A stretch of 64,000 bases of DNA from Vibrio sp. JC009 (GTDB lineage: Bacteria > Pseudomonadota > Gammaproteobacteria > Enterobacterales > Vibrionaceae), in NCBI RefSeq assembly GCF_029016485.1, contig NZ_CP092106.1, forward strand, positions 2,418,001 to 2,482,000. Reading direction: 5' to 3'. Numbering within the stretch: position 1 is the first letter of the stretch; each line of letters opens with the position of its first letter. The notes beneath the pieces were generated by a model that ran no database searches, was not told the DNA's origin, and saw only the letters and a program-made list of their open reading frames with translations. Positions 1-13,112 of the stretch are shown in pieces. The position numbers and the translations under genes were made by a program.

Positions 1-1437
1 ATCTTCCATGGAGACGCCTTTCGCCAACATCATCTTGATGTGAGAATCATCGAAATGTACGGCAGGAAAGCCCATACCAGAACGAATTACATCAACAATC
101 TTGCGTAAATATTTTTGAGGTGACTTATTATTAACACGTGTTGCAAGTGTCGGCTGGTAGACCCGAACATGACGTACCGCATCCATAAGAAGGTAAGTTA
201 GCTCATTGGTTGCATCACGACCTTCACGAGTAACCCCACCAACACACATGTTTACGAATGGCTGATAGCCCGCAAAAAACTTCGACTGACCTTCACTGGT
301 TAACCACATCATCTCTGACATCTTAATCAACATACAGCCCGCCAAATCGAATGCTTCATATTCGTTCATTCGTCCTGATTTAATGTCCGCGATGAAAAGG
401 TCATACATGTATTGGTCAACACGACCAATGGACATACCCGTCTGGTTTTCTTCCACAACCAAAAGAGACTCGATAGTCCAAACCGCCTGGATGGCTTCCC
501 AGAAGGTTTCCGGACGATGAGCCGGAACCTTAGCATTCACTTCAGCAATTCTTTGCAACTCTTGTTTACGGCGAGGGTCTGTTTCGTTCGCAGCAAGCCG
601 GGCAGCGTATTCGGACATACGCCTGGCATAAACCATCACACCTTCTGCTGTCTCAATCACTGACTTGTAGAAGTAGATCTTTTCTACGTCATCCGGGTTT
701 TGATAATCGAGTGCATCCAACTTCTCTTGTGCTTCGCGTTGGATATCTAACATCCCTTTTTTCATGACAATTACGTCATAACCAGGGTTAGAATCACCAC
801 CACCACTGGTTGCATGATAAGAGCAGTCAGAGACATAAGACTCACCAGAGAGCTCCCATAATCCGGCTTCACGATATAAACCTTCACAGTGCTCTTCAAC
901 AGAGCGCTCTTCCCAATAAGGGAAAATGGTTTCAAGCAGCTCTTTTTTATCACCGTCAGATAAATGGAATGGGTCTTGAGGGCGTGTGCCTATTGTTTCC
1001 AGTTCATCACGTAACCAACGCCAGGAAACATCCGGAGAGAAAGAACCTGTACGAGGAGCACCACATGGCGCACCAACAATCAGTTCGTTATCCTGAATAA
1101 CCAGAGGGGCAGTTTCACAGTTACGAAGAAAACTTTTACTACGCAGAAGGGCTGGTGGCATACCCACATTTTCTTTATAAACCTGAGTAATAATACGGGC
1201 TCGGTCAATACTGATAGACGGAACATGTTTTAAGAATTTTTCTTTGAGTTTTACATGTCGTTCTGTAGGGCCATCTGGAATAGTTGTGCCGACTGGCATT
1301 ACTTTTGACTCAGAAGCGGGGTGAGAAAACACTTCTGCTGATACATTTTGGAAAATTTGCTTTAGCGAATTGCGATCGGCTTCTGATAAATTTTTTGTTG
1401 CTTCTTCAAGTTTATTAGCAAAATCCGCAAGATTCAT
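1..1437 (-). CDS. cutC: choline trimethylamine-lyase (glycyl radical enzyme), N-terminal part
   Basis: This is the 5' 479 codons of a glycyl radical enzyme that cleaves choline to trimethylamine and acetaldehyde inside a microcompartment; the gene runs off the left edge. The choline-specific segment [16 protein letters not shown] is present, with Tyr207 and Asp215 spaced as Tyr208/Asp216 of the characterised Desulfovibrio CutC, which contact the trimethylammonium group. Long stretches such as [20 protein letters not shown] also fit CutC rather than pyruvate formate-lyase or diol dehydratase. The close numbering shows it lacks the ~300-residue N-terminal extension I recall for Klebsiella/E. 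coli type II CutC, so it is the short type I-like form. The catalytic Cys and the radical Gly lie outside the window and cannot be checked. The start ATG follows AAAGGTGA at good spacing. It is preceded by the Cys-less aldehyde dehydrogenase gene and probably co-transcribed with it. Confidence 0.93.
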
Positions 1438-1498: not shown

Positions 1499-2956
1499 TT
1501 AACTATTTTGTATCGCTCTAAGTGCTTCCTGAATTAATTTTTGGACAGCATCAATAGAACTACCCTCATATTGAGGCTTTGCTTTTTGCTCATGGGGTTC
1601 ACTTATTTTCCTCACCCCATAACCAACCTTTCTTATATAAGTTAAATTAGTCGGAGATATATTGTCCGCCGTAATACCTTGCCCGTAAGTTCTATTCGCA
1701 AGTGATACCGAAGGCGTCAAATTTGTTGTTAATCCAATCCCACCAAAAGAGGCTGGTGTATTAACTAATAATCTTCCCACTGGTTTTCTTAAAGCGAAAA
1801 GTGAAATAACTTCTTCATCGTTAGAATGAATAGTTAGCGTATGAGCATTGCGTTCATGAAGCAGTAATTCGATACATTTTTCGCATGCGTGCATCCAATC
1901 ATCTTCAACATAATAGGCAAGTACCGGGGCTAATAACTCTCTAGAATATGGGTCGTTCTTGGTGACATACTTCCGCTCAGTGACTAAGAGACGAACGTTA
2001 TCAGGAACAATAAAATTAGCTCGATTAGCAAGCTGTTTTGCTGACACACCAATCATCCCTAACCGGTGTTTTCCGCATTCTGCAAATAGAAGGTCCGCTA
2101 ACGCGAGAGACTCTTCCTCCGTCATGAAGTAAGCACCTTGCTCCTGCATAAGTAAGCGGAGCTGAGACTCGATGCATGCATCGACAATAATAGAATGTTC
2201 TGCCGAAGGAGAAATACCGTTATCAAATACTTTACTAGAAACAATATCTTCAACTGCCTGAGAGATATCAGCTGTTCGCTCAATAAAAGCTGGCCCATTT
2301 CCTGTTCCGCTGTATATAACAGGCTTTCCCGAACAGCGCCCTAACTCAGCCATACCGGGAACACCTGAAAGCAAGATTAGTGCGGTCTCAGGGTGGTTTA
2401 ATAACTCTCTGGTTCCTTCTTTTGTCACCGTATCCATATAGGATAGAGCCCCGTTAGGCAGGCCACTTTCTTCTGCCGCCTCAATCATGCAATCAAGCGT
2501 AGCTTTAATACATTTAGCAGCATTTGGATGAGGAGAAAAAACAATACTATTGCCAGATTTTATCGCAATAAGTGCCTTATATATTGTCGTAGATACAGGG
2601 CTGGTTACCGGAGATAGTCCGACTAACACACCAAAAGGTACACCTATATCCAATGTACGTTGTTTCTCATCTTTAGCGATAACACCAACACATCTTAAAG
2701 TGCGTAAATAGGTGAGAACATGCTGAGTTACGAACTGGTTTTTTTTGACTTTGTCTTGCCAGCGTCCATAACCTGTCTCTTCGACAGAAAGCTTCGCCAA
2801 GCTTTCAACTTGCTTTGAAACACTGGCAACCATAGCCTCGACAATGGCATCAAGTTTTTCCTGAGAAAATAAAGATAACTCCAGTTGTGCACTAGCTGCA
2901 TTTTCCATAAGAACTCTTGATTCCTGTATGGAAACTAAGTCTTTATCCATTATCAT
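1499..2956 (-). CDS. aldehyde dehydrogenase paralogue lacking the catalytic Cys, BMC-associated
   Basis: A 485-residue member of the CoA-acylating acetaldehyde dehydrogenase family (PduP/EutE/CutB-CutF type), colinear with the intact enzyme at 9361-10818. Shared landmarks include IVFSPHPNAAKC and FIERTADIS. The catalytic segment, FDNGTICASEQAII in the intact paralogue, reads FDNGISPSAEHSII here, putting Pro250 where the nucleophilic Cys should be. The nucleotide-site motif GVGAGNVP is also changed, to YSGTGNGP. The C-terminus has a charged linker (EPHEQKAKPQ) followed by an amphipathic helix (SIDAVQKLIQEALRAIQN) typical of BMC encapsulation peptides. The frame is intact and full length, so it is probably retained for a non-catalytic role such as core scaffolding or partner of the active subunit; that is inference. 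A second possible start is the ATG at 2950. It is followed by cutC after 61 nt and preceded by a MerR-type promoter. Confidence 0.85.
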   Translation of the reverse strand: MIMDKDLVSIQESRVLMENAASAQLELSLFSQEKLDAIVEAMVASVSKQVESLAKLSVEETGYGRWQDKVKKNQFVTQHVLTYLRTLRCVGVIAKDEKQRTLDIGVPFGVLVGLSPVTSPVSTTIYKALIAIKSGNSIVFSPHPNAAKCIKATLDCMIEAAEESGLPNGALSYMDTVTKEGTRELLNHPETALILLSGVPGMAELGRCSGKPVIYSGTGNGPAFIERTADISQAVEDIVSSKVFDNGISPSAEHSIIVDACIESQLRLLMQEQGAYFMTEEESLALADLLFAECGKHRLGMIGVSAKQLANRANFIVPDNVRLLVTERKYVTKNDPYSRELLAPVLAYYVEDDWMHACEKCIELLLHERNAHTLTIHSNDEEVISLFALRKPVGRLLVNTPASFGGIGLTTNLTPSVSLANRTYGQGITADNISPTNLTYIRKVGYGVRKISEPHEQKAKPQYEGSSIDAVQKLIQEALRAIQNS

Positions 2957-3009
2957 GATTAGTACCGCCCAGTTGCAGATATTCTTTGTATTATCTTGTT
3001 TTAAATAAC

Positions 3010-3040
3010 AGCCTATCTTTTCTCTTTAGGGGAAGGTCAA
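3010..3040 (-). promoter_or_regulatory. MerR-type promoter/operator A (aldehyde dehydrogenase-cutC unit)
   Basis: Read on the minus strand: -35 TTGACC (3040-3035), a 19-nt spacer containing TTCCCCTAAAGAGAAAAG, and -10 TAGGCT (3015-3010). A 19-nt spacer is the mark of MerR-activated promoters, which need DNA distortion by the activator. The spacer is nearly identical to sites at 6415-6445 and 9240-9270. The 5' leader to the start codon at 2956 would be about 47 nt. Confidence 0.8.
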
Positions 3041-3128: not shown

Positions 3129-3479
3129 TTACATTTGCGTCATGGAAACACAATCATAATTTAACTTTTCAGTAAAATAATTAATCACTTCTTTAATAGC
3201 TGTTTCTACACTTGAAACATCCCCGGTGATCATAAGCGAGCCGTCTGAGCGTTCTAAAAAACCAATATTTACTTCCACTGTTTTAGTTGCAACATCAGCG
3301 GCAATGATTACACCTTCACATGGCGTAATATTCAAAATCCCTATTGCATTCCCTTTTTCTTTGTCTAGCTCCAACACATTGAAAAGTTCAGGCTGTGGAT
3401 TTGAGATAACGTGAGCCAGAGTAATTTGCTTACCCGGCACGTGTTCCTGAATAATCCGTTGTTTCATTTCTTCATACAT
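3129..3479 (-). CDS. BMC shell protein, EutS/PduU-like hexamer
   Basis: A 116-residue single-domain shell protein. The N-terminal RIIQEHVPGKQITLAHVI and later EGVIIAADVATKTVEVNIGFLERSDGSL closely follow EutS and PduU, the circularly permuted BMC-H class whose N-terminal strands form a small barrel over the hexamer pore. It would form facets of the choline compartment shell. It is the last gene of the minus-strand shell/redox unit (tandem shell, pduS, pduT, this gene), 31 nt after pduT. About 170 nt then separate it from the next start, including promoter A. Start chosen at 3479; an internal ATG at Met5 is an alternative. Confidence 0.9.
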   Translation of the reverse strand: MYEEMKQRIIQEHVPGKQITLAHVISNPQPELFNVLELDKEKGNAIGILNITPCEGVIIAADVATKTVEVNIGFLERSDGSLMITGDVSSVETAIKEVINYFTEKLNYDCVSMTQM

Positions 3480-3510: not shown

Positions 3511-4062
3511 TTAAATGATATATTTGTGTAGATCCTGGCTCGGAGATGGAATCACTACATGGCTCAATACCGGCCCGGACTCACCAACACCAGCAACACC
3601 CGCCTCTACTGCTGCCTGAACCGAAGAGACATCTCCTGACAAAATAACGAATGCCTTACCGGCTAACCCGGCAGCAAAACGGATATCTAAGACTTCAACA
3701 TTAGCGGATTTAGCAGCGGCATCAGCAGCTAAGATACAACCTGCACAGGTATAAACTTCGATAACACCAAGGGCTGCCATATCATTCGCTTCAGGGATGC
3801 CCTGAAGAGCAGATGCCACTGAATGATGTATCCGGGGAATGGTGAAGCTATCTACCACCATGGCAGAACCGAGCATACAACCCGACTCCACACTACTTGT
3901 CACTGCAGCAGTATCTCCAGCAACAACTATCAAGTAACGACCAGGGCAGGTTGTTTTAGCCATAACTAAGTCCACATCAGCCGCTTTAATCATAGCGTCG
4001 GCCACCAGAATACCAACCGCCACACTGTTTAATTCAACACAACCGATTGTTTGCAATTGCAT
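3511..4062 (-). CDS. pduT: PduT-like BMC trimeric shell protein with Fe-S cysteine
   Basis: A 183-residue protein with two BMC domains (about residues 5-88 and 97-180). The segment MAKTTCPGRYLIVVAGD matches PduT, in which this Cys (position 38 there, 39 here) binds a [4Fe-4S] cluster at the centre of the pseudohexameric trimer, one Cys per subunit. In the Pdu system PduT is thought to pass electrons across the shell in partnership with PduS. The gene follows pduS by only 12 nt, which supports the same pairing here. The open frame extends to a GTG at 4071, but the ATG at 4062 is preferred because AGGTGA sits just upstream. Confidence 0.92.
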   Translation of the reverse strand: MQLQTIGCVELNSVAVGILVADAMIKAADVDLVMAKTTCPGRYLIVVAGDTAAVTSSVESGCMLGSAMVVDSFTIPRIHHSVASALQGIPEANDMAALGVIEVYTCAGCILAADAAAKSANVEVLDIRFAAGLAGKAFVILSGDVSSVQAAVEAGVAGVGESGPVLSHVVIPSPSQDLHKYII

Positions 4063-4074
4063 AAACTTCACCTA

Positions 4075-5403
4075 TTACTTTCTGATTGTTATTACGTTAT
4101 TTGATATGGACGAAACGACACCGGTGATGCTCGAGTGTATCCTTGCGCTCATGCTGCCTTCCGGGATCTCTCCAATACACTGCCCCTTTTCTACGCAATC
4201 ACCAACATCAACTATGCACCTCGCAGGAGCACCAATGTGTTGAGATAAAGGAATAGATACCTGATCAGGAACGATCTCTCCCCCATAAGATGTACTAACA
4301 TCGTACTTAGCAAGATCAAGGCGCTGGATAAGGCGTTGCGTTGGAATTCGACGACTTTCTCTGAATGGGTGAGCTTCCTGTGGTTCTCCCGTCGTCTCTA
4401 AACGAACACCGCCTTCTCTTAATTTCATCTTGATTTGTGCATTTAGTTCCCTTGGTGAGAGTCCCATAGGGCATGCAAATTTTTCACACACACCGCACTC
4501 TGAACAAAGCAGTGCTTTATGCGCTTCTTTGTTACCCAAAACGTCTTCCGCTCCAATTCTGGTGAGTTTATGCGGTTGTATATCGTGGCCTAACAAGAAA
4601 CGCGGGCAAAGTTCAGTACATAACGTGCATTGGCAGCAGATCGAAGTTGTCAATTTACTGACTTGCCGTGTAGGCATAATTTTTCTAACCACAACCGTGT
4701 GCTCTGGCGGAAGAACTAAAATCCCACTGGTCGTTTTAGTGATTGGGCTGTTCACATCTGACAACACACGCCCCATCATTGGACCGCCATCTACGACAAC
4801 ATAATCATTGATGGTTGCACCGCCGGCATATTCGATAACCTCTGCCGCTGTTGTACCAACCGACGCACGAACGACCATCGGTGTTTTAACCGCACCAAAG
4901 ACTGTAAGGTAACGATCGGTAACCGGTATATTGTTCAGTGCTAACCCAATGTTGTAAAAGGTCTCTACATTACTAACGACAGCACCAACATGAAGTGGTA
5001 ATCCGCCTTGAGGAATTGTTCTACCCAGAACTTCATGTACTAATACATGCTCGTCACCAATAGGATAAAAGTTCTCTAATTCGAATATTTCAATGCGTGA
5101 GTCACCAAACTCTTCAACGACCGTTTTTAAAGATTTCAATGCTGTCTTATGTTTCGCTTTCAGGCACACAATGCCACGACTAGCCTCAGTGGCATTCATC
5201 ATAGCTTCAACGCCTTTCAGCATCTCTGCTCCTGCGGTTTCAATCAAGTAAGGGTCACTCATTAGAAGTGGTTCGCAAGACGCACCATTTACTAATATCG
5301 TGTCCACTTTAGTATCAGCTTTTATATGAGTGGGTAATCCAGCACCACCACTACCGACAATGCCAGCATTTTTTATTATTCTAATTAATTCTTCTTTAAT
5401 CAT
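4075..5403 (-). CDS. pduS: PduS-like flavin/Fe-S electron-transfer protein of the BMC
   Basis: A 442-residue RnfC/NqrF-like protein of the PduS type. It begins with the glycine-rich AGIVGSGGAGLPTHIKA (nucleotide/flavin region) and carries two ferredoxin-like cluster motifs, CQCTLCTELCP (about residues 257-267) and CSECGVCEKFACP (about 299-310). A C-terminal barrel-sandwich segment ends it. PduS in Salmonella is a cobalamin reductase with FMN and two [4Fe-4S] clusters. A choline lyase needs no B12, so here a redox role such as cofactor recycling or electron export through PduT is more likely; that is inference. The frame continues to a TTG at 5418, but the ATG at 5403 is preferred. Confidence 0.9.
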   Translation of the reverse strand: MIKEELIRIIKNAGIVGSGGAGLPTHIKADTKVDTILVNGASCEPLLMSDPYLIETAGAEMLKGVEAMMNATEASRGIVCLKAKHKTALKSLKTVVEEFGDSRIEIFELENFYPIGDEHVLVHEVLGRTIPQGGLPLHVGAVVSNVETFYNIGLALNNIPVTDRYLTVFGAVKTPMVVRASVGTTAAEVIEYAGGATINDYVVVDGGPMMGRVLSDVNSPITKTTSGILVLPPEHTVVVRKIMPTRQVSKLTTSICCQCTLCTELCPRFLLGHDIQPHKLTRIGAEDVLGNKEAHKALLCSECGVCEKFACPMGLSPRELNAQIKMKLREGGVRLETTGEPQEAHPFRESRRIPTQRLIQRLDLAKYDVSTSYGGEIVPDQVSIPLSQHIGAPARCIVDVGDCVEKGQCIGEIPEGSMSARIHSSITGVVSSISNNVITIRK

Positions 5404-5455
5404 GCCTTTTGCTCTCAATACTTAGATAGTCACTGGTAATCATCATTTGTTTTAG

Positions 5456-5600
5456 CTAATTACGACCAGCCTCTAATAATTTTTTAGCAGATCTCTTCAA
5501 GCTTATAAAAAAACTCACAAGATCCATAATTTTCACCTTTAAAACCAGGTTATATTTAGAACAAATATCTAGTTATTTTTATAGTTTTAACTACTTTTTA
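5456..5600 (-). pseudogene. decayed duplicate of the cutC 5' end and its leader
   Basis: This lies in the 319-nt gap between pduS and the tandem shell gene. On the minus strand an ATG at 5527 opens 23 codons (stop at 5456) reading MDLVSFFISLKRSAKKLLEAGRN, against [23 protein letters not shown] of cutC. Ten of 23 residues are identical, and the DNA match improves with a 1-nt gap. The leader is also shared: both have ATAACCTGG, then AAAGGTGAAA, then ATTATG, and further upstream the AGTTAA that ends the aldehyde dehydrogenase gene before cutC. The segment is therefore a remnant of an aldehyde dehydrogenase-cutC junction, left by a duplication or rearrangement. It is too short and frame-broken to encode a functional enzyme. 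Confidence 0.75.
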
Positions 5601-5722
5601 TTATTAAATATGTACTGAAATTTATTCCACACTGGCAGAAGCCCACATTCCACAAAAACATTTTCATAACATATGATTTACATTAGAAGTTTGAAACTTT
5701 TATGTTATGTGTATTTATAAAT

Positions 5723-6352
5723 TTAAGGTAACAAATTATTTATATTGTATAATTGTGTTATTTTCAGTAAGTCTGGGTGTGGCGAAGGAATTACCACTGA
5801 GCTATAAACTTTTGTTCCCATATTTTCAACAGCATATACTCCCGCTTCCACCGCAGCTATACAAGCAGAAACATCTCCCTTTACGAGCACAGAAATATAC
5901 CCGGAAGCAACGTTTTCATATCCAACAAGTTCTACATCAGCTGCTTTAATCATTGCATCAGCAGCTTCTAAAATATATACAATGCCAAAGGTTTCTATAA
6001 ATCCCATTGCTGCTGGGCTTTCATCTAACTCACTTTGTGGCCCCTCTACAGGTAAACCGTGAACGGAAACAATATCTCCGATCGCGTTAATCGGACGCGG
6101 CATTGAATTAGAGGCTGTTAATTCTCCAATACTTTTTGCCGCTACAGAGCCAGCGTCTACTGACGATGTGACTGCTGCTACGTCTCCTTTAACCATAACT
6201 GCAACCAGTGTTGAACCTATATTTTCATACGCTACAAGCTTTACATTTGCAGCTTTTAGCATTGCATCTGCACCGAAAATAGCAGGAACCATTCCCAATG
6301 TTTCAATAAGACCTAACGCTTCCTCGCCCTTGTACCGGATGAATTCTTCCAT
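5723..6352 (-). CDS. tandem-domain BMC shell protein (BMC-T)
   Basis: A 209-residue protein made of two canonical BMC domains: residues about 9-90 (EALGLIETLGMVPAIFGADA...) and 115-200 (AAMGFIETFGIVYILEAADA...). They are joined by a linker rich in Pro and acidic residues. The two halves resemble each other and the PduA-like hexamer at 10852 more than PduB or EutL, so this is a non-permuted pseudohexameric trimer. Such trimers often carry larger, sometimes gated, pores. It heads the minus-strand shell/redox unit and lies 63 nt downstream of the -10 of MerR-type promoter B. GAGGTG lies upstream of the start. No Cys pair for an Fe-S centre is seen. Confidence 0.88.
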   Translation of the reverse strand: MEEFIRYKGEEALGLIETLGMVPAIFGADAMLKAANVKLVAYENIGSTLVAVMVKGDVAAVTSSVDAGSVAAKSIGELTASNSMPRPINAIGDIVSVHGLPVEGPQSELDESPAAMGFIETFGIVYILEAADAMIKAADVELVGYENVASGYISVLVKGDVSACIAAVEAGVYAVENMGTKVYSSVVIPSPHPDLLKITQLYNINNLLP

Positions 6353-6414
6353 TTTTACTGCACCTCAGTTTAATCATTGGTTAATTCGTTAAATGAGTAA
6401 GCTCCAAATACAGC

Positions 6415-6445
6415 ATCCTAATGTTCCCCTTAAGGGTAAGGTCAA
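6415..6445 (-). promoter_or_regulatory. MerR-type promoter/operator B (shell/pduST unit)
   Basis: Minus strand: -35 TTGACC (6445-6440), 19-nt spacer with the palindrome ACCCTTAAGGGG, and -10 TAGGAT (6420-6415). Architecture and sequence match promoters A and C. The target gene starts at 6352. Confidence 0.8.
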
Positions 6446-6934
6446 TATTGTTTTACTAACAGGAACTAAATAATTTGAACTCGCTCATATTACTACCCAC
6501 TATCAAGTATCTCGCATAAATTTGCACATAAAATCACATCGTTATTAAGAGTAATTATCAGCAAATTTAAATTCAGTTAAATAATCAACTTAACCATAAT
6601 ACTAAGATCACTTTTTTTACCCTCTATTCAATAATCATAGTGATAAGCATCACAAAGGAAAAAACCATTAATTAACATCCCGTAAAATGAGTATATCTTC
6701 GCTACGGTTAATATTATTAAGTTCTCCAAAGTTTCACATTCAATGATTGAGCTATTAAACACACTCTCATGTTGCAGTGATGTAAGAGTCTTGTTAAATG
6801 CGCAAGAGTTTGAAAATTTAACACTATTTTATACTAATAAAAAAGCATATTAAAAATGGAGAACATCTTGGCATTTATGCCTACAGCAATAACTAATATT
6901 CCAATAACGTATCTATAAAAAGGGCATTTAACAC
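6446..6934. other. AT-rich divergent intergenic region
   Basis: About 490 nt between the shell/pduST operon (minus) and the transporter gene (plus), without a credible gene. A CRP-like palindrome lies at 6639-6654. A short palindrome, GGCATTTATGCC, lies near 6869-6880 close to the transporter start. No MerR-type 19-nt promoter is seen facing the transporter, so that unit is probably controlled differently from the other three. Confidence 0.5.
6639..6654. promoter_or_regulatory. CRP-like binding site
   Basis: The sequence AGTGA-TAAGCA-TCACA differs from the TGTGA-N6-TCACA consensus at one position. It lies between the two divergent BMC-locus units. This would fit catabolite control of choline use, but occupancy is inferred. 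Confidence 0.5.
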
Positions 6935-8032
6935 ATGGAAAAAACAACATTGTTAGATAGTGCTATTAACATCCCAACTTCCGATAGCGCAGAAAAAAAA
7001 CTAAGGAGTGACTTTCGTAAAAAAGGGGTTTCTACTGCTTTATTTTCAGGGCTTTCATACGGATTTTATACCGCCTTCATGACCCTGGCGATGTCTATGG
7101 GTATATGGAGTGTCTGGTATGGAGAAGGCTCTGGTCTCTCTGTTTTTGCAACAACCTATCTTCTTGCCGCCATTGGGGCTGCTTTAACAGACTCATCTAG
7201 CGCAATATGGGCATTAGGTATTGCTGGGGTGCGGGGCCGTTTGGGGGACTTCACTCGCTCAATAAGAACCAAGCCCGGTGCAATCATGGTAGCATCCGCG
7301 ATTATTGGCGGCCCGTTAGCAAGTACAGCCTATGTGGTCGGGTTGCAGATGGCAGGCTCCATTGTTGTCCCTATCAGTGCCCTGTGCCCGGCTATCGGTG
7401 CCATTCTGGCTCGGATCCTTTTCAAGCAGGAACTAACCGCTCGTATGATGCTAGGTATTGCTATCTGCTTTTTTGCCAGTGTTCTTATTGGCGGAACCGC
7501 TGGCTTGGATGGTGACGCTTCTGAAACCGTGATGCTAGGCATCTTTTTTGGCTTCCTTGCCGCTCTATTTTGGGGCTTCGAAGGCTGCGTAGCTGGTTAC
7601 GGTACTTCTATGATTGATCCGGAAATTGGCATCACTATACGTCAGGTAACTTCGGGGTTAACTAACTTGATTCTTCTGGTTCCTATCTTTGGGCTTATTG
7701 CCGGCGAAAATGGAACCGCGATGATATTTGAAGCATTGGCTGACTCTCAATCCATGCCATATTTCGTTATTGCAGGCTTAGCAGCATATGGAGCATTTAT
7801 GTTCTGGTATAAAGGCAATGCTATGTGCGGGGCTCCATTGGGCATGGCTTGTAACGGCACATTCTCTTTCTGGGGACCATTATGTTGTTGGGTAGTTCTG
7901 GGTATAGCCTTCGGTATTGCCGGTTGGACAATGGCTCCGATTGCCTGGCTTGCAGCGATAATCATGGTTTTTGGTATTTTAGTCATTGCTATGAACCCAA
8001 TGGACCTATTCAAAAAGGATAACAATCAATGA
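6935..8032 (+). CDS. DMT-superfamily (EamA-like) membrane transporter, BMC-associated
   Basis: A 365-residue hydrophobic protein with about ten predicted membrane segments in two similar halves. Glycine-rich helices such as AIIGGPLASTAYVVGLQMAGS and a second-half counterpart fit the drug/metabolite transporter fold. A soluble N-terminal stretch of about 30 residues comes first. Its place in a choline BMC locus suggests movement of choline, trimethylamine or another pathway metabolite; choline-lyase clusters often carry a small multidrug-type transporter, but the substrate cannot be read from sequence. Its stop overlaps the start of the next gene (ATGA). AAGGGC precedes the ATG. Confidence 0.75.
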   Translation: MEKTTLLDSAINIPTSDSAEKKLRSDFRKKGVSTALFSGLSYGFYTAFMTLAMSMGIWSVWYGEGSGLSVFATTYLLAAIGAALTDSSSAIWALGIAGVRGRLGDFTRSIRTKPGAIMVASAIIGGPLASTAYVVGLQMAGSIVVPISALCPAIGAILARILFKQELTARMMLGIAICFFASVLIGGTAGLDGDASETVMLGIFFGFLAALFWGFEGCVAGYGTSMIDPEIGITIRQVTSGLTNLILLVPIFGLIAGENGTAMIFEALADSQSMPYFVIAGLAAYGAFMFWYKGNAMCGAPLGMACNGTFSFWGPLCCWVVLGIAFGIAGWTMAPIAWLAAIIMVFGILVIAMNPMDLFKKDNNQ

Positions 8033-8338: not shown

Positions 8339-8365
8339 AATAACAAGTAATTGGAGGATTTTAAG

Positions 8366-9202
8366 TTGAATAAGTATTCAATTAGCGATGCCAGCAAGTT
8401 ATGCAACATCTCAGCTAAAGCACTTCGTTATTATGATAAAATAGGGTTAATTAAACCAAAAAGATTAAACTCTAACAACTATCGTTATTATACAGACGAT
8501 AGCCTTAGCCTCATCCCAATTATAAAATACTATAAACAAATGGGATTTACACTCGATGAAATGAGCCCTCTAATTTCTTGTAGAGATTGTGATATTGACA
8601 ATGTTTTGCAAGAAGTTTTCAAGAGCAAAATGTCCGAGCTTTTTAAAGAAAAAAGAGATTTAGAAGTTAGGTATAACTCAGTAAACGATTGGCATAATCT
8701 CATACTCGAAGCAAGAAGTGTTCAAGAGAACCAAAACACTGACGTTTCGGTGCAATTTTTCTCAGGCGATAATTATCTCTTTTTAAAACAAGACTTTAAC
8801 AAAGATCTTCGAGCTTCAGTTATCAATATTGAGTTTACAGATTATGTCGAGAAGATGAATACTAATATTGTAGGGCCAGTGATGCTGCAGTTCAATTCAC
8901 ATCGGGAACGTATTACTGGAGAAGCAAAAGAAACATGTATTTTACAAAAAACGGCTACTCCCTGCCCATCAGATAAAACCCGTTTTATCGGTGGTAAAAC
9001 CATGGCTAGGTGCTATCACATAGGAAGCCACTCCACTATAAAAGAAACCTATGAAAAAATATCAACGTGGGCAAAATTAAATAACTACTCACTTGAAGAC
9101 AAGTGCTATGAACGATACGTCATAGATTATTGGACAACTAAAGATAGTGATAAATATGTGACTGAAATTATGATACCTGCCACACGGAATATTTCTAGTT
9201 GA
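8366..9202 (+). CDS. MerR-family transcriptional activator, probable BMC regulator
   Basis: A 278-residue regulator. Residues 1-70 form the MerR winged-helix domain (SISDASKLCNISAKALRYYDKIGLI, then NNYRYYTDDSL and MGFTLDEM). A coiled-coil dimerisation helix follows at about 75-115 and a C-terminal effector domain of the GyrI/BmrR type. It is the only regulator in the locus, and three 19-nt-spacer promoters nearby fit its family, so it likely activates the whole compartment in response to choline or a product (inference). Translation most likely begins at TTG 8366, because GGAGG lies 8 nt upstream; the frame itself extends to a TTG at 8351, inside that ribosome site. An upstream terminator implies its own promoter. 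Confidence 0.88.
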   Translation: MNKYSISDASKLCNISAKALRYYDKIGLIKPKRLNSNNYRYYTDDSLSLIPIIKYYKQMGFTLDEMSPLISCRDCDIDNVLQEVFKSKMSELFKEKRDLEVRYNSVNDWHNLILEARSVQENQNTDVSVQFFSGDNYLFLKQDFNKDLRASVINIEFTDYVEKMNTNIVGPVMLQFNSHRERITGEAKETCILQKTATPCPSDKTRFIGGKTMARCYHIGSHSTIKETYEKISTWAKLNNYSLEDKCYERYVIDYWTTKDSDKYVTEIMIPATRNISS

Positions 9203-9239: not shown

Positions 9240-9270
9240 TTGACCTTCCCCTTAAGAGAAAGGATATGCT
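9240..9270 (+). promoter_or_regulatory. MerR-type promoter/operator C (active aldehyde dehydrogenase-hexamer unit)
   Basis: -35 TTGACC (9240-9245), 19-nt spacer beginning TTCCCCTTAAGAGAAAGG, and -10 TATGCT (9265-9270). It matches sites A and B in sequence, spacing and orientation to its target. The predicted leader to the start at 9361 is about 85 nt. Confidence 0.82.
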
Positions 9271-9360
9271 TTGAGTGAAAAGCCTTAAACATGTAAGGCT
9301 TGGGTAAATATTAATTTTAGCGCATTTATTTTAACGCATAATAATTATGAGGCGTAGATA

Positions 9361-10818
9361 ATGGTAGATAAAGATCTATTATCAATTCAAGAAGCAAGAG
9401 CTCTGATTCACTCAGCTCGGACCGCTCAGAATGAATTTGCTCAGCTAACCCAGGAGCGTGTAGATAGTATTGTTAAGGCCATTGCTGAAGCAGCGACTAA
9501 TAAAGCGGGCGAACTCGCACAACTCGCTGTTGAAGAAACCGGGTTTGGTAAAGTAGAAGATAAAACCACTAAAAATATATTAGCGAGCGAAAAACTGTAC
9601 GCAGCCATTAAAGATATGAAAACTATCGGTGTGGTGAACAAGGATATCTCTAAGAAAATCATCGAAATCGCTGTCCCTACCGGGGTTATCGCAGGCATTG
9701 TGCCTTCAACCAACCCAACCTCTACCACCATTTATAAGTCCCTGATTTCTATTAAGTCAGGCAATGCCATCGTATTTACACCACACCCTAGCGCCAGTCA
9801 GTGTATCGGGAAAACCGTTGAACTTATCCGTGACACGCTACGCTCTTGTGGTGTCAGTGAAGACATGGTGAGCGTCATGAATATCCCTACTATTGAAGGT
9901 AGCGGTGAGCTGATGCGCAAGGTTGACCTGATTCTGGCCACTGGTGGCCCGGGCATGGTGAAAGCCGCCTACAGCTCAGGTACCCCTGCGCTTGGTGTGG
10001 GCGCGGGTAATGTACCGGTTTATATTGAACGCACAGCAGATATCAGTGACGCCGTGACCAAAATAATGGCAAGCAAGACCTTCGACAACGGAACAATTTG
10101 TGCTTCTGAACAAGCTATTATTACCGATAAGGTGATTGACGCTCAGGTGAGAGCGACCCTTAAAGCTCAGGGCGGCTATTTCCTTCAAAATACCGAACTT
10201 GAAAACGTGAAAAAAATAATGGAACGCCCGAATGGCGCCATGAACCCAGCAATCGTCGGTAGAGATGCACAGTATATTGCTAATTTAGCCGGAATAACGG
10301 TTCCGTCAGATACTCGTCTTCTTATCGGAGAAGAGGCAGGAGTGGGCCCTTCATACCCATTCTCGAAAGAGAAGCTAACCGCCCTGATGGGATATTACAC
10401 GGTGGAAGACTGGAATGAAGCGTGTGAATTGTCAGTCCAGCTGCTTCACAACGGAGGGGTAGGCCACTCTTTAGCGATCCATTCCAAAGATGAATCTGTT
10501 ATCTGTGCGTTTGGCCTGAAAAAGCCGGTTTCACGAATGTTGGTAAATACACCTTCGACGCACGGAGCTGTGGGTCTTTCAACGAATCTATTCCCTTCCT
10601 TTACATTGGGCTGTGGTGCGGTAGGTGGAAGCTCTACTTCTGACAACGTTACCCCAGAGCACCTGATAGATATTCGTCGTGTAGCCTACGATACGGAGGA
10701 GCTATCTTATAGTCACAATACACCCACCAATGATACTAACGGAACATCTACCGAAGGTTCAGTAGATGTAGAAATGATCACTAAAATGATCGTTAATGAG
10801 CTTAAGAAAATGGCTTGA
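9361..10818 (+). CDS. CoA-acylating acetaldehyde dehydrogenase, BMC enzyme
   Basis: A 485-residue enzyme converting the acetaldehyde made by CutC to acetyl-CoA with NAD+, corresponding to CutB/CutF of choline loci and related to EutE/PduP. The catalytic Cys247 lies in FDNGTICASEQAII, and the nucleotide-site motifs ATGGPGMV and GVGAGNVPVYIERTADIS are intact. The C-terminus has a flexible low-complexity linker (HNTPTNDTNGTSTEG) and then an amphipathic helix (SVDVEMITKMIVNELKKM), the usual layout of a BMC encapsulation peptide. GAGGCG precedes the ATG. It is followed after 33 nt by a shell hexamer gene. The two paralogous dehydrogenases are on opposite strands, each under its own MerR-type promoter. 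Confidence 0.92.
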   Translation: MVDKDLLSIQEARALIHSARTAQNEFAQLTQERVDSIVKAIAEAATNKAGELAQLAVEETGFGKVEDKTTKNILASEKLYAAIKDMKTIGVVNKDISKKIIEIAVPTGVIAGIVPSTNPTSTTIYKSLISIKSGNAIVFTPHPSASQCIGKTVELIRDTLRSCGVSEDMVSVMNIPTIEGSGELMRKVDLILATGGPGMVKAAYSSGTPALGVGAGNVPVYIERTADISDAVTKIMASKTFDNGTICASEQAIITDKVIDAQVRATLKAQGGYFLQNTELENVKKIMERPNGAMNPAIVGRDAQYIANLAGITVPSDTRLLIGEEAGVGPSYPFSKEKLTALMGYYTVEDWNEACELSVQLLHNGGVGHSLAIHSKDESVICAFGLKKPVSRMLVNTPSTHGAVGLSTNLFPSFTLGCGAVGGSSTSDNVTPEHLIDIRRVAYDTEELSYSHNTPTNDTNGTSTEGSVDVEMITKMIVNELKKMA

Positions 10819-10851: not shown

Positions 10852-11127
10852 ATGTCTTTAAATGCACTTGGAATGGTTGAAACTAAAGGTTTGGTTGGCG
10901 CAATAGAAGCTGCTGACGCAATGGTAAAAGCAGCAAACGTAGAACTTGTTGGACGTGAGCAAGTCGGTAGTGGTTTGGTTACTGTTATGGTACGTGGTGA
11001 TGTTGGTGCTGTAAAAGCAGCCACAGATGCAGGCGCCGCTGCTGCTCAAAATGTAGGCGAGCTAGTAAGTATTCATGTTATCCCTCGCCCACATAGCGAA
11101 GTAGAAACAATCCTGCCTAAAGCCTAA
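10852..11127 (+). CDS. BMC hexameric shell protein, PduA/PduJ-like
   Basis: A 91-residue canonical single BMC domain: [29 protein letters not shown], then [23 protein letters not shown] and the C-terminal IPRPHSEVE. Such hexamers tile the facets and provide the main metabolite pores. It is co-transcribed with the active aldehyde dehydrogenase and ends in a strong terminator. It resembles both halves of the tandem shell protein at 5723-6352. Confidence 0.95.
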
Positions 11128-11244: not shown

Positions 11245-12913
11245 GATAACATATTGAAATATTTGAAAAATGTAGGATAAAAAGAAGGAAAACTCCGATA
11301 AATTTACTATAGTTAATAGTGCTAACTCATTGACTAGATTAAAAAAACCGGAGTTTAGGATGCGTGAAACACACAACCCACAAATCAGTATATTCGAATT
11401 TTACGGTGAGCACGAGACCGGCCAGCAATTAAAAAATATATCTGAGAGATTGGACGCCATTCCCGCGATATTAGATATCGCAACCAATGCTATTTTTACT
11501 TCCGGGGCAAAGCAAACCGGACGCAAAGGGCTGACTGTTGATACCATTGTCAGAGCGGCATTGCTCAAACAAATGATGGGATTAACCTATGACGAACTCA
11601 GCTTCTATTTACAGGACTCATTAAGTTACAGCTCTTTTGCCAGAGTTGATTCATCCATACGTTATTCCGGCTCCTGCTTACAATCCTGTATTAGCAAAAT
11701 TGATGCGGCAAGTTGGGAAGCGATTAATCGTCTGCTGCTTAGTGATGCAGCGGCAAAAGGAATTGAAAAAGGCAGAATGGTCCGAATTGACAGTACGGTA
11801 ACTGAAACTCATATCTCCCCACCCAGCGACAGCAACCTTCTCTGGGACTGTGTTCGTGTCATGGTTCGTCTGCTCCGGAAAATGGCCTCCGTACTGGAGC
11901 TGGGAGCCGTTACATTTTGTGACCGGACCCGGGCAGCTAAACGGCGCATGAAAGCCATCGCCTATTCCAGAGGAAGCAACAGAGTAAAGCAATACAAACG
12001 GTTGATTGCTAATACTAAAGAGACCCGTGACTATTTGTACATGGCACTTAACCCCAAAAGCCAACTACGGGAATCCTTTCAATTTATACAATTGGAAGAA
12101 GAAGCTAAAGCACTCCTGGAGCTCACAGAAAAAGTGATTAGCCAAACCCAAAGAAGGGTGTTTAATGGCGAATCCGTTCCTCATCAGGAGAAGGTACTCA
12201 GCATCTTCGAGCCTCATACCGATATCATCAGAAAAGGCTCCAGAGACATTCAATATGGGCACAAGCTAAACCTGACGACAGGTAAGAGTGGCCTGGTGTT
12301 AGATGTTTATATTGAAGAAGGTAATCCGGCAGATGCCGCGAGATTGTGTCCTATGTTGGAAAGGCAAAAGGAAATATACGGCAGGGCTCCAAGACAGGCT
12401 GCTGCCGATGGCGGGTACGCCAGTCAGGACAATCTTACGAAGGCTAAGGAAATGGGGGTTAAGGATGTCGCCTTCAATAAAAAACGCGGCCTGAAGGTTG
12501 AAGACATGGTGAAAAGCGACTGGGTGTACAAAAAGCTTTATAAGTTTAGGGCAGGTGTTGAAGGAAACATCTCTTGCCTGAAACGTCGCTTCGGACTGTC
12601 GAGGTGCAACTGGAAAGGTCTGGAGAAGTTCAAGGCCTATGTCTGGGCTTCAAGTGTGGCATATAACCTCTTGCAACTCGCGCGGATAGAAACCGCCAAC
12701 TGACCTTATCCTGCCAAAAGGAAATACACGCCAGTCACTACGATGGCAGGGCTTTTAATGTTTGCGTTTTGACTAATTGCCCAATAAGAGCAAAAAATAT
12801 CGTGATCGCACACTTCGTGTGCGCAATCACCATACATTAGGCTTCGGAAAAGTAGCAACCAGAGCTAGATCAATGGAACAAGTGCTTAAAATCTGCTGTT
12901 TCTGGATGAGAAC
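11229..12913 (+). mobile_element. complete insertion sequence, ISNCY-like, 1685 bp
   Basis: Bounded by 16-bp perfect terminal inverted repeats and flanked by a 6-bp direct repeat TATCTC, so the boundaries are clear. It contains one transposase gene and about 190 nt of non-coding sequence at its right end, with a hairpin (CGCACAC / GTGTGCG) near 12804-12820. The perfect repeats and intact frame point to a recent insertion. Family placement rests on the transposase. Confidence 0.85.
11360..12703 (+). CDS. DDE transposase, ISNCY-like
   Basis: A 447-residue transposase. The N-terminal MRETHNPQISIFEFYGEHE and the catalytic-core segments RIDSTVTETHISPPSDSNLLWDCVRV, AAADGGYAS and AGVEGNISCLKRRFGLSRC are characteristic of the ISNCY family. 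The three DDE acids are plausibly the Asp of DST, the Asp of ADGGY and the Glu of GVEGN. The ATG at 11360 is preferred to a TTG at 11330, as the protein then begins with the family-typical MRETH sequence. No frameshift or stop is seen. Confidence 0.88.
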   Translation: MRETHNPQISIFEFYGEHETGQQLKNISERLDAIPAILDIATNAIFTSGAKQTGRKGLTVDTIVRAALLKQMMGLTYDELSFYLQDSLSYSSFARVDSSIRYSGSCLQSCISKIDAASWEAINRLLLSDAAAKGIEKGRMVRIDSTVTETHISPPSDSNLLWDCVRVMVRLLRKMASVLELGAVTFCDRTRAAKRRMKAIAYSRGSNRVKQYKRLIANTKETRDYLYMALNPKSQLRESFQFIQLEEEAKALLELTEKVISQTQRRVFNGESVPHQEKVLSIFEPHTDIIRKGSRDIQYGHKLNLTTGKSGLVLDVYIEEGNPADAARLCPMLERQKEIYGRAPRQAAADGGYASQDNLTKAKEMGVKDVAFNKKRGLKVEDMVKSDWVYKKLYKFRAGVEGNISCLKRRFGLSRCNWKGLEKFKAYVWASSVAYNLLQLARIETAN

Positions 12914-12919
12914 TATCTC
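12898..12919. repeat. right terminal inverted repeat and target-site duplication (TATCTC)
   Basis: GTTTCTGGATGAGAAC at 12898-12913 pairs perfectly with 11229-11244. TATCTC at 12914-12919 repeats the left target copy. Confidence 0.85.
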
Positions 12920-13036
12920 GTAAATTATTCCATAAAAATGCACCCTATAAAACTGTACTTGATTGAAGTATAAGCACTTAGTCGTTGGACGCTTGGTTAA
13001 AAGAAAGAGTTGGTATACAATAATTTTCTGCACAGC

Positions 13037-13112
13037 GTCCCCATAGTTCAACCGGATAGAACAGTCGCCTCCTAAGCGATCGATCCAGGTTCGAGTCCTG
13101 GTGGGGACGCCA
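13037..13112 (+). tRNA. tRNA-Arg (anticodon CCU)
   Basis: A cloverleaf can be folded. The acceptor stem is GTCCCCA / TGGGGAC. The anticodon stem GTCGC / GCGAT encloses the loop CTCCTAA, with anticodon CCT reading AGG. The T arm is CCAGG-TTCGAGT-CCTGG, and the discriminator G and CCA are encoded. It is a single tRNA. tRNA-Arg(CCU) genes are frequent island insertion sites; here one lies between the AT-rich BMC/insertion-sequence segment and core genes. Confidence 0.95.

Follow-up and report, generated by a model that had tools for sequence, protein, structure and literature searches.

The gene at positions 1499 to 2956 (minus strand) of the 64-kb window, the whole stretch of DNA analysed here and part of a 5.2-Mb genome in three contigs, encodes a homologue of acetylating aldehyde dehydrogenases (ALDHs) that has lost its catalytic cysteine and lies next to cutC, the choline trimethylamine (TMA)-lyase gene of a GRM1 choline microcompartment. 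The lineage of this protein, hereafter the dead AldDH, is the sister group of CutF, the dehydrogenase of GRM2 choline loci. On the basis of sequence comparisons we consider it somewhat probable that the dead AldDH acts as a core-assembly partner, or scaffold, of CutC.

Proteins of this kind have been described. According to the accessible text of Axen (2014; PMC4207490), all GRM1 choline loci with two AldDHs have one with Ser or Pro in place of Cys, for which a scaffold or regulator role was suggested, and the dead copies were removed from the published tree; the available part of Sutter (2021) calls the second AldDH of GRM1A and GRM1B loci putatively inactive. The protein studied here is of the same kind. 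The preliminary description is confirmed, and the gene encodes a real, conserved dead dehydrogenase of a type known since 2014; the scaffold idea, being already in print in that text, is not new. Compared with the published copies, ours comes from a member of the Vibrionaceae that also encodes PduS-like, PduT-like and EutS-like proteins and an ALDH-phosphotransacylase (PTAC) fusion. Our analysis adds the breadth of the survey, the finding of Thr and Ala at the Cys position, the placement of the dead copies in a tree and their sister group, a second widely shared loss (an Asn), and shared MerR-type boxes. The literature that we searched, which included few subscription papers, gave no test, binding, localisation or deletion result for the dead copy.

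Sequence and predicted structure of the dead dehydrogenase

The open reading frame of the dead AldDH spans 485 aa with no internal stop, as first described, and the reported exchange of the catalytic Cys for Pro is real. From the translation and the comparison with orthologues, Pro250 (codon 2207 to 2209, minus strand) occupies the Cys position, and residues 247 to 254 read GISPSAEH against the intact GTICASEQ of the second, active-type acetylating ALDH of the locus (9361 to 10818, plus strand). Both proteins have TIGR02518 (acetylating acetaldehyde dehydrogenase) as their best NCBIfam match, with 667.8 bits for the intact ALDH and 509.5 bits for the dead AldDH, against a curated cut-off of 620.1; the latter thus departs from the family both in score and in the catalytic Cys. 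Its predicted structure agrees with the ALDH fold. The AlphaFold2 model (mean pLDDT 87.6) shows this fold followed by a low-confidence linker (residues 457-465) and a C-terminal helix (467-484), and its top Foldseek match is PDB 3K9D (TM 0.89/0.95, 46% identity). The structures 3K9D and 5J78/5J7I share the fold at 39-46% identity but keep both the Cys and the Asn discussed below.

Residue conservation was compared between 28 dead copies and 45 Cys-bearing ALDHs over the 92 columns that are at least 97% conserved in the latter, omitting L132 and the AdhE rows besides those left out of the careful tree (see below). The usual residue is kept in at least 90% of the dead copies in 58 of these columns and is in the minority in 12, among them Cys247, Asn118 and Ser249; Asn118 is replaced by Ser in 27 of the 28 copies, and Ser249 by Ala or Gly. 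Others among the 12 are not known to be catalytic. In the dead AldDH, Ser119 (codon 2600 to 2602, minus strand) stands where the TNPTST motif has the conserved Asn. By motif and spacing, Asn118 would be the putative oxyanion Asn (N138 in Cphy1178) and His369 the putative base (H387). In the accessible text on Cphy1178 (PMC4762007), C269A and H387A each abolish activity with the fold essentially unchanged, and the nucleophile-less C269A protein (PDB 5DBV), with a wild-type fold, was solved with CoA bound; unlike the dead AldDH, it is a laboratory mutant of a propionaldehyde enzyme, and the two are 28% identical. Since both the nucleophilic Cys and the putative oxyanion Asn are missing, the dead AldDH should not oxidise acetaldehyde, and it is almost certainly devoid of dehydrogenase activity.

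Outside the 92 columns the dead clade is marked by Tyr215, where other ALDHs have Gly or Ser, and by Val199, where they have Gly and rarely Ser, in loops taken to bind the cofactor; the Tyr is present in all 28 dead copies compared. To this extent the altered nucleotide motif of the preliminary description stands. Its other part, however, cannot serve as a sign of inactivity and was rejected as proof of it, because Gly216 and Gly221 are common to the dead AldDH and the Cys-bearing GRM2 CutF and GNGP also occurs in 3K9D.

The residues that are retained bear on another activity or ligand-binding task for the protein, for example as a lumenal binder of NAD, CoA or acetaldehyde or, in the copies with Ser, as a Ser-dependent hydrolase. 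The conserved Glu is mostly kept, the likely base His is found in 25 of 31 dead copies, and Ser or Thr fills the Cys position in 38 of 60 loci; the Glu and the His would be needless in a pure scaffold and count against that role as well. On the other side, the position holds Pro or Ala in 22 of the 60, this gene included, so that the dead copies have no common nucleophile, and the invariant Tyr takes the place of Gly or Ser in the presumed cofactor loop. We therefore regard such an activity as improbable.

The encapsulation-type helix noted at the C-terminus was borne out. Residues 467-484 (1505 to 1558, minus strand) are predicted to form an amphipathic, encapsulation-peptide-like helix whose hydrophobic moment exceeds that of all 500 shuffles, and a terminal amphipathic helix after a flexible linker, as modelled here, is a feature of the luminal cargo of bacterial microcompartments (BMCs). 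Through this tail the dead AldDH may be encapsulated. Of the 31 dead copies, 25 have a significantly amphipathic C-terminal tail (p<=0.05).

Distribution, linkage to cutC and selection

The second dehydrogenases of other choline loci were aligned as the preliminary description had proposed. None of 31 full-length ALDHs adjacent to cutC (the window, L007-L024 and L102-L113) has the Cys, the position being Pro in 16, Ser in 11, Thr in three and Ala in one; three Photobacterium records, with 87-88% identity to the dead AldDH, carry the same Pro. A survey led by CutC (at least 74% identity; L088-L100 and L158-L190, with the earlier-found G283, G284 and G286 left out), centred taxonomically on genomes already found by way of the ALDH, covered 46 GRM1-type loci. 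In 45 of them an ALDH lies on the stretch beside cutC, always without Cys (Ser 30, Pro 13, Ala 2); the other locus, L100 (extended as L114), has cutCD alone, and neither an ALDH nor a shell gene was found on its 19.9 kb. One CutC search yielded 46 places: 30 were read as loci, two lie in genomes covered separately (G284 and G476), and the survey does not include the other 14, of which 11 have at least 74% identity. When all surveys are pooled, the Cys is absent from 60 of 60 distinct readable loci (Ser 35, Pro 19, Thr 3, Ala 3), which include Bacillota, Thermodesulfobacteriota and Pseudomonadota; the number is 60 and not 64 because L186-L189 are the same as L010, L015, L014 and L013, and it leaves out the partial L034 and L087, whose Cys column is unreadable.

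The active ALDH of GRM1 loci sits elsewhere in the locus, away from the cutC stretch. Among GRM2-type stretches, 13 (L070-L082) have no ALDH within 1.5 kb on each side of the CutC match, and in five (L116-L120) the ALDH lies beyond an alcohol dehydrogenase gene and a BMC-P gene, with Cys in all five. The organism studied belongs to a family that includes Photobacterium, since locus L068 of the same-family genome G219 matches the named contig of P. alginatilyticum (L008) in its cutC coordinates, and its genus is probably Vibrio. Within this range, the dead AldDH was found in its own genome only among 99 sampled genomes of the genus (its own included), the next best match having 45% identity, and GRM1-type CutC in three of 247 sampled genomes of the family.

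Some loci depart from the common arrangement. In L018, L019 and L022, all with Thr for Cys, the dead AldDH and cutC are separated by a gene for an alcohol dehydrogenase. L108 has its dead AldDH at the usual place (6039-7469), only 26-28% identical and with nearly all ALDH motifs gone; its end branch of 5.5 in the quick tree reflects fast change after the loss of catalysis. Six genomes with GRM1 CutC (G283, G1388, G1410, G1426, G1148 and G1151) encode a second CutC-like enzyme of 57-60% identity, the match of which lacks the first 57-59 residues (L115:7436-9850; L191, L192 and L193). The L115 copy scores above the CutC cut-off and lies beside the PduS/PduT genes of the same locus, and the L193 copy has an internal TGA.

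The ratio dN/dS of the dead AldDH against P. proteolyticum was 0.066-0.098 by three methods, a range somewhat higher than for the active solo ALDH (0.056-0.064) and cutC (0.028-0.033), similar to that of pduS (0.064-0.084) and lower than for the MerR gene (0.114-0.158); the values come from one species pair and are rough given a dS of 0.72-0.98. A ratio below 0.1 supports retention under selection, and the comparison as a whole suggests that the dead copies are not genes in decay but conserved structural parts of long standing. Decay or a sequencing error could be invoked for the lost Cys itself and for the fast-changing L108, and nothing else speaks for them. The frame is intact, the constraint and the same loss in every readable locus, in several phyla, refute a decaying pseudogene, and the shared Pro in the three Photobacterium records together with the lack of Cys in every orthologue read rules out a sequencing error, so that we give this explanation practically no weight.

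Origin of the dead lineage

The phylogeny was examined with a quick tree of 72 rows and a careful tree of 76 proteins, 28 of them dead copies, which omits L009, the dead copy of L108, both L112 rows, nine ALDHs that were either distant or near-identical, and two AdhE loci that yielded no motif. A single change divides the Cys from the non-Cys proteins in the quick tree, and the 28 dead copies form one clade in the careful tree (support 100/100), sister to GRM2 CutF (100/96). Seven residues are common to the dead and CutF clades alone, against none in three control groupings of less closely related sets. The CutF clade includes L121, a Cys-bearing ALDH from a genome of the same genus whose 14-kb stretch showed no cut gene. 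The dead clade has a long stem (0.85), which leaves some room for long-branch attraction. Published trees that include the inactive copies (PMC8217296, Fig. 5) or CutB (PMC6620236, supplement) may already show the sister relationship to CutF.

The retention of an inactive paralogue, as the preliminary description put it, holds for the loss of Cys and for the retention; in the sense of a paralogue it does not, as the protein belongs to an old lineage sister to a Cys-bearing one. Grouping the dead copies with either of two sets of GRM1 active ALDHs (16 and 7 rows) was rejected by the AU test (p 9e-42 and 1e-7), p values that refer to sets taken from the tree and not to groups named beforehand. 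A single clade of all 23 GRM1 active ALDHs was also rejected (AU p 1.4e-9); these enzymes fall in at least two clades. The dead copy is hence no duplicate of its active neighbour, which rejects a recent duplication, and the GRM1 active ALDH has more than one origin.

This result also bears on the possibility that the dead AldDH is a regulatory pseudoenzyme that enters mixed tetramers with the active enzyme and adjusts either the activity of the latter or its balance with the alcohol dehydrogenase. A regulator is named beside scaffolding in the accessible text of Axen (2014; PMC4207490), the predicted fold is the same as that of the active enzyme, similar MerR-type boxes precede the two genes, and the 58 retained near-invariant columns fit such a role. 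Against it, the spread of the active ALDHs over more than one clade makes one fixed partner surface less likely, and the mean identity of the dead copies to them is 40%. In addition, residues 443, 445 and 448 match GRM2 CutF and differ from most other Cys-bearing ALDHs; they lie in a C-terminal strand which, by analogy, would be the oligomerisation strand. Regulation through mixed tetramers is, in our judgement, rather unlikely.

The choline locus and its MerR-type boxes

The window holds the 5' part of cutC (1 to 1437, minus strand; whole gene L037:16900-19437), whose product of 845 aa scores 1605 bits against TIGR04394. The long N-terminal extension is absent from this CutC, which places the locus in GRM1 (type I cut); in the same family, GRM2-type CutC frames have 1137-1160 aa (13 places). 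The locus also encodes CutD (480 bits), EutN and BMC domain proteins, an Fe-type alcohol dehydrogenase, a PTAC fused to an ALDH, and the second ALDH with its Cys replaced, perhaps the CutB of PMC6620236. With GRM1b, in which PduS and PduT are present and GrpU is usually absent, it was compared by the first two alone, and PduS-like and PduT-like genes are both seen.

On the minus strand the order is: tandem BMC, PduS-like, PduT-like, EutS-like BMC, dead AldDH, cutC, cutD, a BMC-H with a tail, the ALDH-PduL fusion, a 200-aa protein, a EutN-type BMC-P, a tandem BMC, a 113-aa protein, a BMC-H and the alcohol dehydrogenase. Domain searches identify the first tandem BMC shell protein of the operon (5723 to 6352, minus strand) and, with profiles, the PduS-like (RnfC-like) iron-sulphur protein (4075 to 5418, minus strand). 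The next gene (3511 to 4071, minus strand) encodes a tandem BMC shell protein with two BMC stretches, which we take to be PduT-like from its place beside pduS; the EutS-like shell protein (3129 to 3479, minus strand) has a BMC domain and 95 bits against NF012012, below the cut-off of 123. The plus strand carries an EamA-like transporter (6935 to 8032; 21.9 bits, below the cut-off of 28.2), putatively for choline, with homologues in many related cut loci, a MerR-family regulator with a GyrI-like domain (8351 to 9202), the active-type ALDH and a BMC-H shell protein (10852 to 11127), the last and the regulator identified by domain search.

Several features of the cluster were observed in passing. 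The ALDH and the PduL-type PTAC are fused in frame into a 671-aa protein with Aldedh and PTAC domains (L037:13299-15314, minus strand, outside the window), as also in P. proteolyticum (L007:15677-17680), and are separate ORFs in the 20 further cut loci where both were seen in the sequence examined; a direct passage of acetyl-CoA between the two sites is plausible. Between the tandem BMC gene and pduS lies a relic of the cutC 5' end and leader (window 5445-5601, minus strand), with a 23-codon encapsulation-peptide-like stub; its local alignment score is 111, against 38 for the best of 200 shuffles and 28 for the gap at the same place in L007. Two nearly identical BMC-H genes stand at the ends of the locus, that at 10852-11127 beside the active ALDH and one at L037:11172-11447 beside the alcohol dehydrogenase. 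At the right end (window 11330-13112) are a DDE transposase gene and a tRNA-Arg(CCT), and the G+C content is 0.38-0.45 inside the locus and 0.45-0.50 beyond it; from these features the locus may be a mobile island.

The MerR-type promoter claimed for the dead AldDH is supported as a sequence element, the box TTGACC-N19-TAGGCT (3007 to 3040, minus strand). The search pattern (TTGACNTTNCC, a 19-bp spacer, then TA or TT) was modelled on sites already known; it has three matches in the window against a mean of 0.17 and a largest count of one in 30 simulated windows. The other two precede the tandem-BMC/pduS operon (6412 to 6445, minus strand) and the active ALDH (9240 to 9273, plus strand). A looser 15-base search gave five matches against 1.62 expected, a count reached in two of 100 shuffles. 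The same box precedes the dead AldDH in the three Photobacterium records (L007, L008 and L009). In nine further loci (L012, L013, L015, L016, L017, L023, L109, L110 and L113) it stands in front of the tandem BMC gene that immediately precedes the dead AldDH, and in L010 the box and the predicted start of this BMC gene overlap; the pattern is absent from five of the 20 related loci scanned (L011, L020, L024, L104 and L105). Because cutC starts at 1437, just 61 bases downstream of the dead AldDH, a common transcript of the two genes is likely. One MerR-type control probably governs the dead AldDH, the shell operon and the active ALDH alike. According to the accessible part of a transcript study, the transcript of an AldDH beside the choline lyase of C. 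ljungdahlii, by its position a possible dead copy, rises by log2 7.2 with choline (PMC12016505).

A candidate core-assembly partner of CutC

The best lead for the role of the dead AldDH is, by analogy, the parallel with GRM2 CutF. In the accessible text of Kalnins (2020; PMC6971018), GRM2 CutC mediates encapsulation, and CutF, which has a C-terminal encapsulation-like extension, shifts full-length CutC, but not N-truncated CutC, to larger aggregates and is proposed as a multivalent cross-linker. The CutF proteins (Klebsiella, E. coli, Proteus, Photobacterium) are like the dead AldDH in the features of sister lineages given above and unlike it in keeping the Cys, as the five same-family rows do. 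The two systems also differ in the lyase: GRM2 CutC has a long N-terminal extension that is missing here, and in the Photobacterium-group protein this extension is itself a distant copy of part of the CutC body (23% identity, E 7e-20).

In the mechanism that we propose, the dead AldDH would keep the predicted ALDH fold and so probably form a tetramer, which as a multivalent block would bind CutC and, via its tails, the shell; the lyase would thereby be gathered into the core next to the active dehydrogenase. GRM2 CutF seems to do this gathering as well as catalysis. Counting for a scaffold are the loss of both Cys and Asn, the low dN/dS, the linkage to cutC, the sisterhood to CutF and the tails found in most copies. 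Counting against it, besides the retained Glu and His, are the dependence of the co-migration of CutF with CutC on an N-terminal extension that the CutC of this locus lacks, the six of 31 tails that are not significantly amphipathic, the divergent L108, the presence of L121 in the CutF clade, and the long stem. The distances between dead AldDHs correlate with those between CutCs (r 0.72 over 19 loci, against 0.64 for the active ALDH), figures too close to each other for an argument, which was dropped; such a correlation, like the linkage to cutC, also follows from simple co-inheritance.

A further reading, which we put forward only tentatively, is that the dead AldDH of GRM1 and CutF of GRM2 form one lineage of CutC-core cross-linkers in which the dead half is on opposite sides. 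If so, the GRM2 protein would both catalyse and cross-link, its dead partner being the partial, radical-less CutC copy fused to CutC, while in GRM1 that partner would be the dehydrogenase, relieved of its catalytic duty. In GRM1 the active ALDH would then have become an interchangeable module, recruited more than once, and both choline organelles would retain the same lyase-dehydrogenase contact.

These findings bear on how a microcompartment core assembles around its signature enzyme, in compartments that produce trimethylamine. The presence of a dead dehydrogenase next to the lyase in 45 of 46 CutC-led loci marks a candidate part for this assembly, and the link to CutF makes the 2014 suggestion of a scaffold or regulator directly testable, as a scaffold of this kind would be expected to bind CutC in the way that CutF does.
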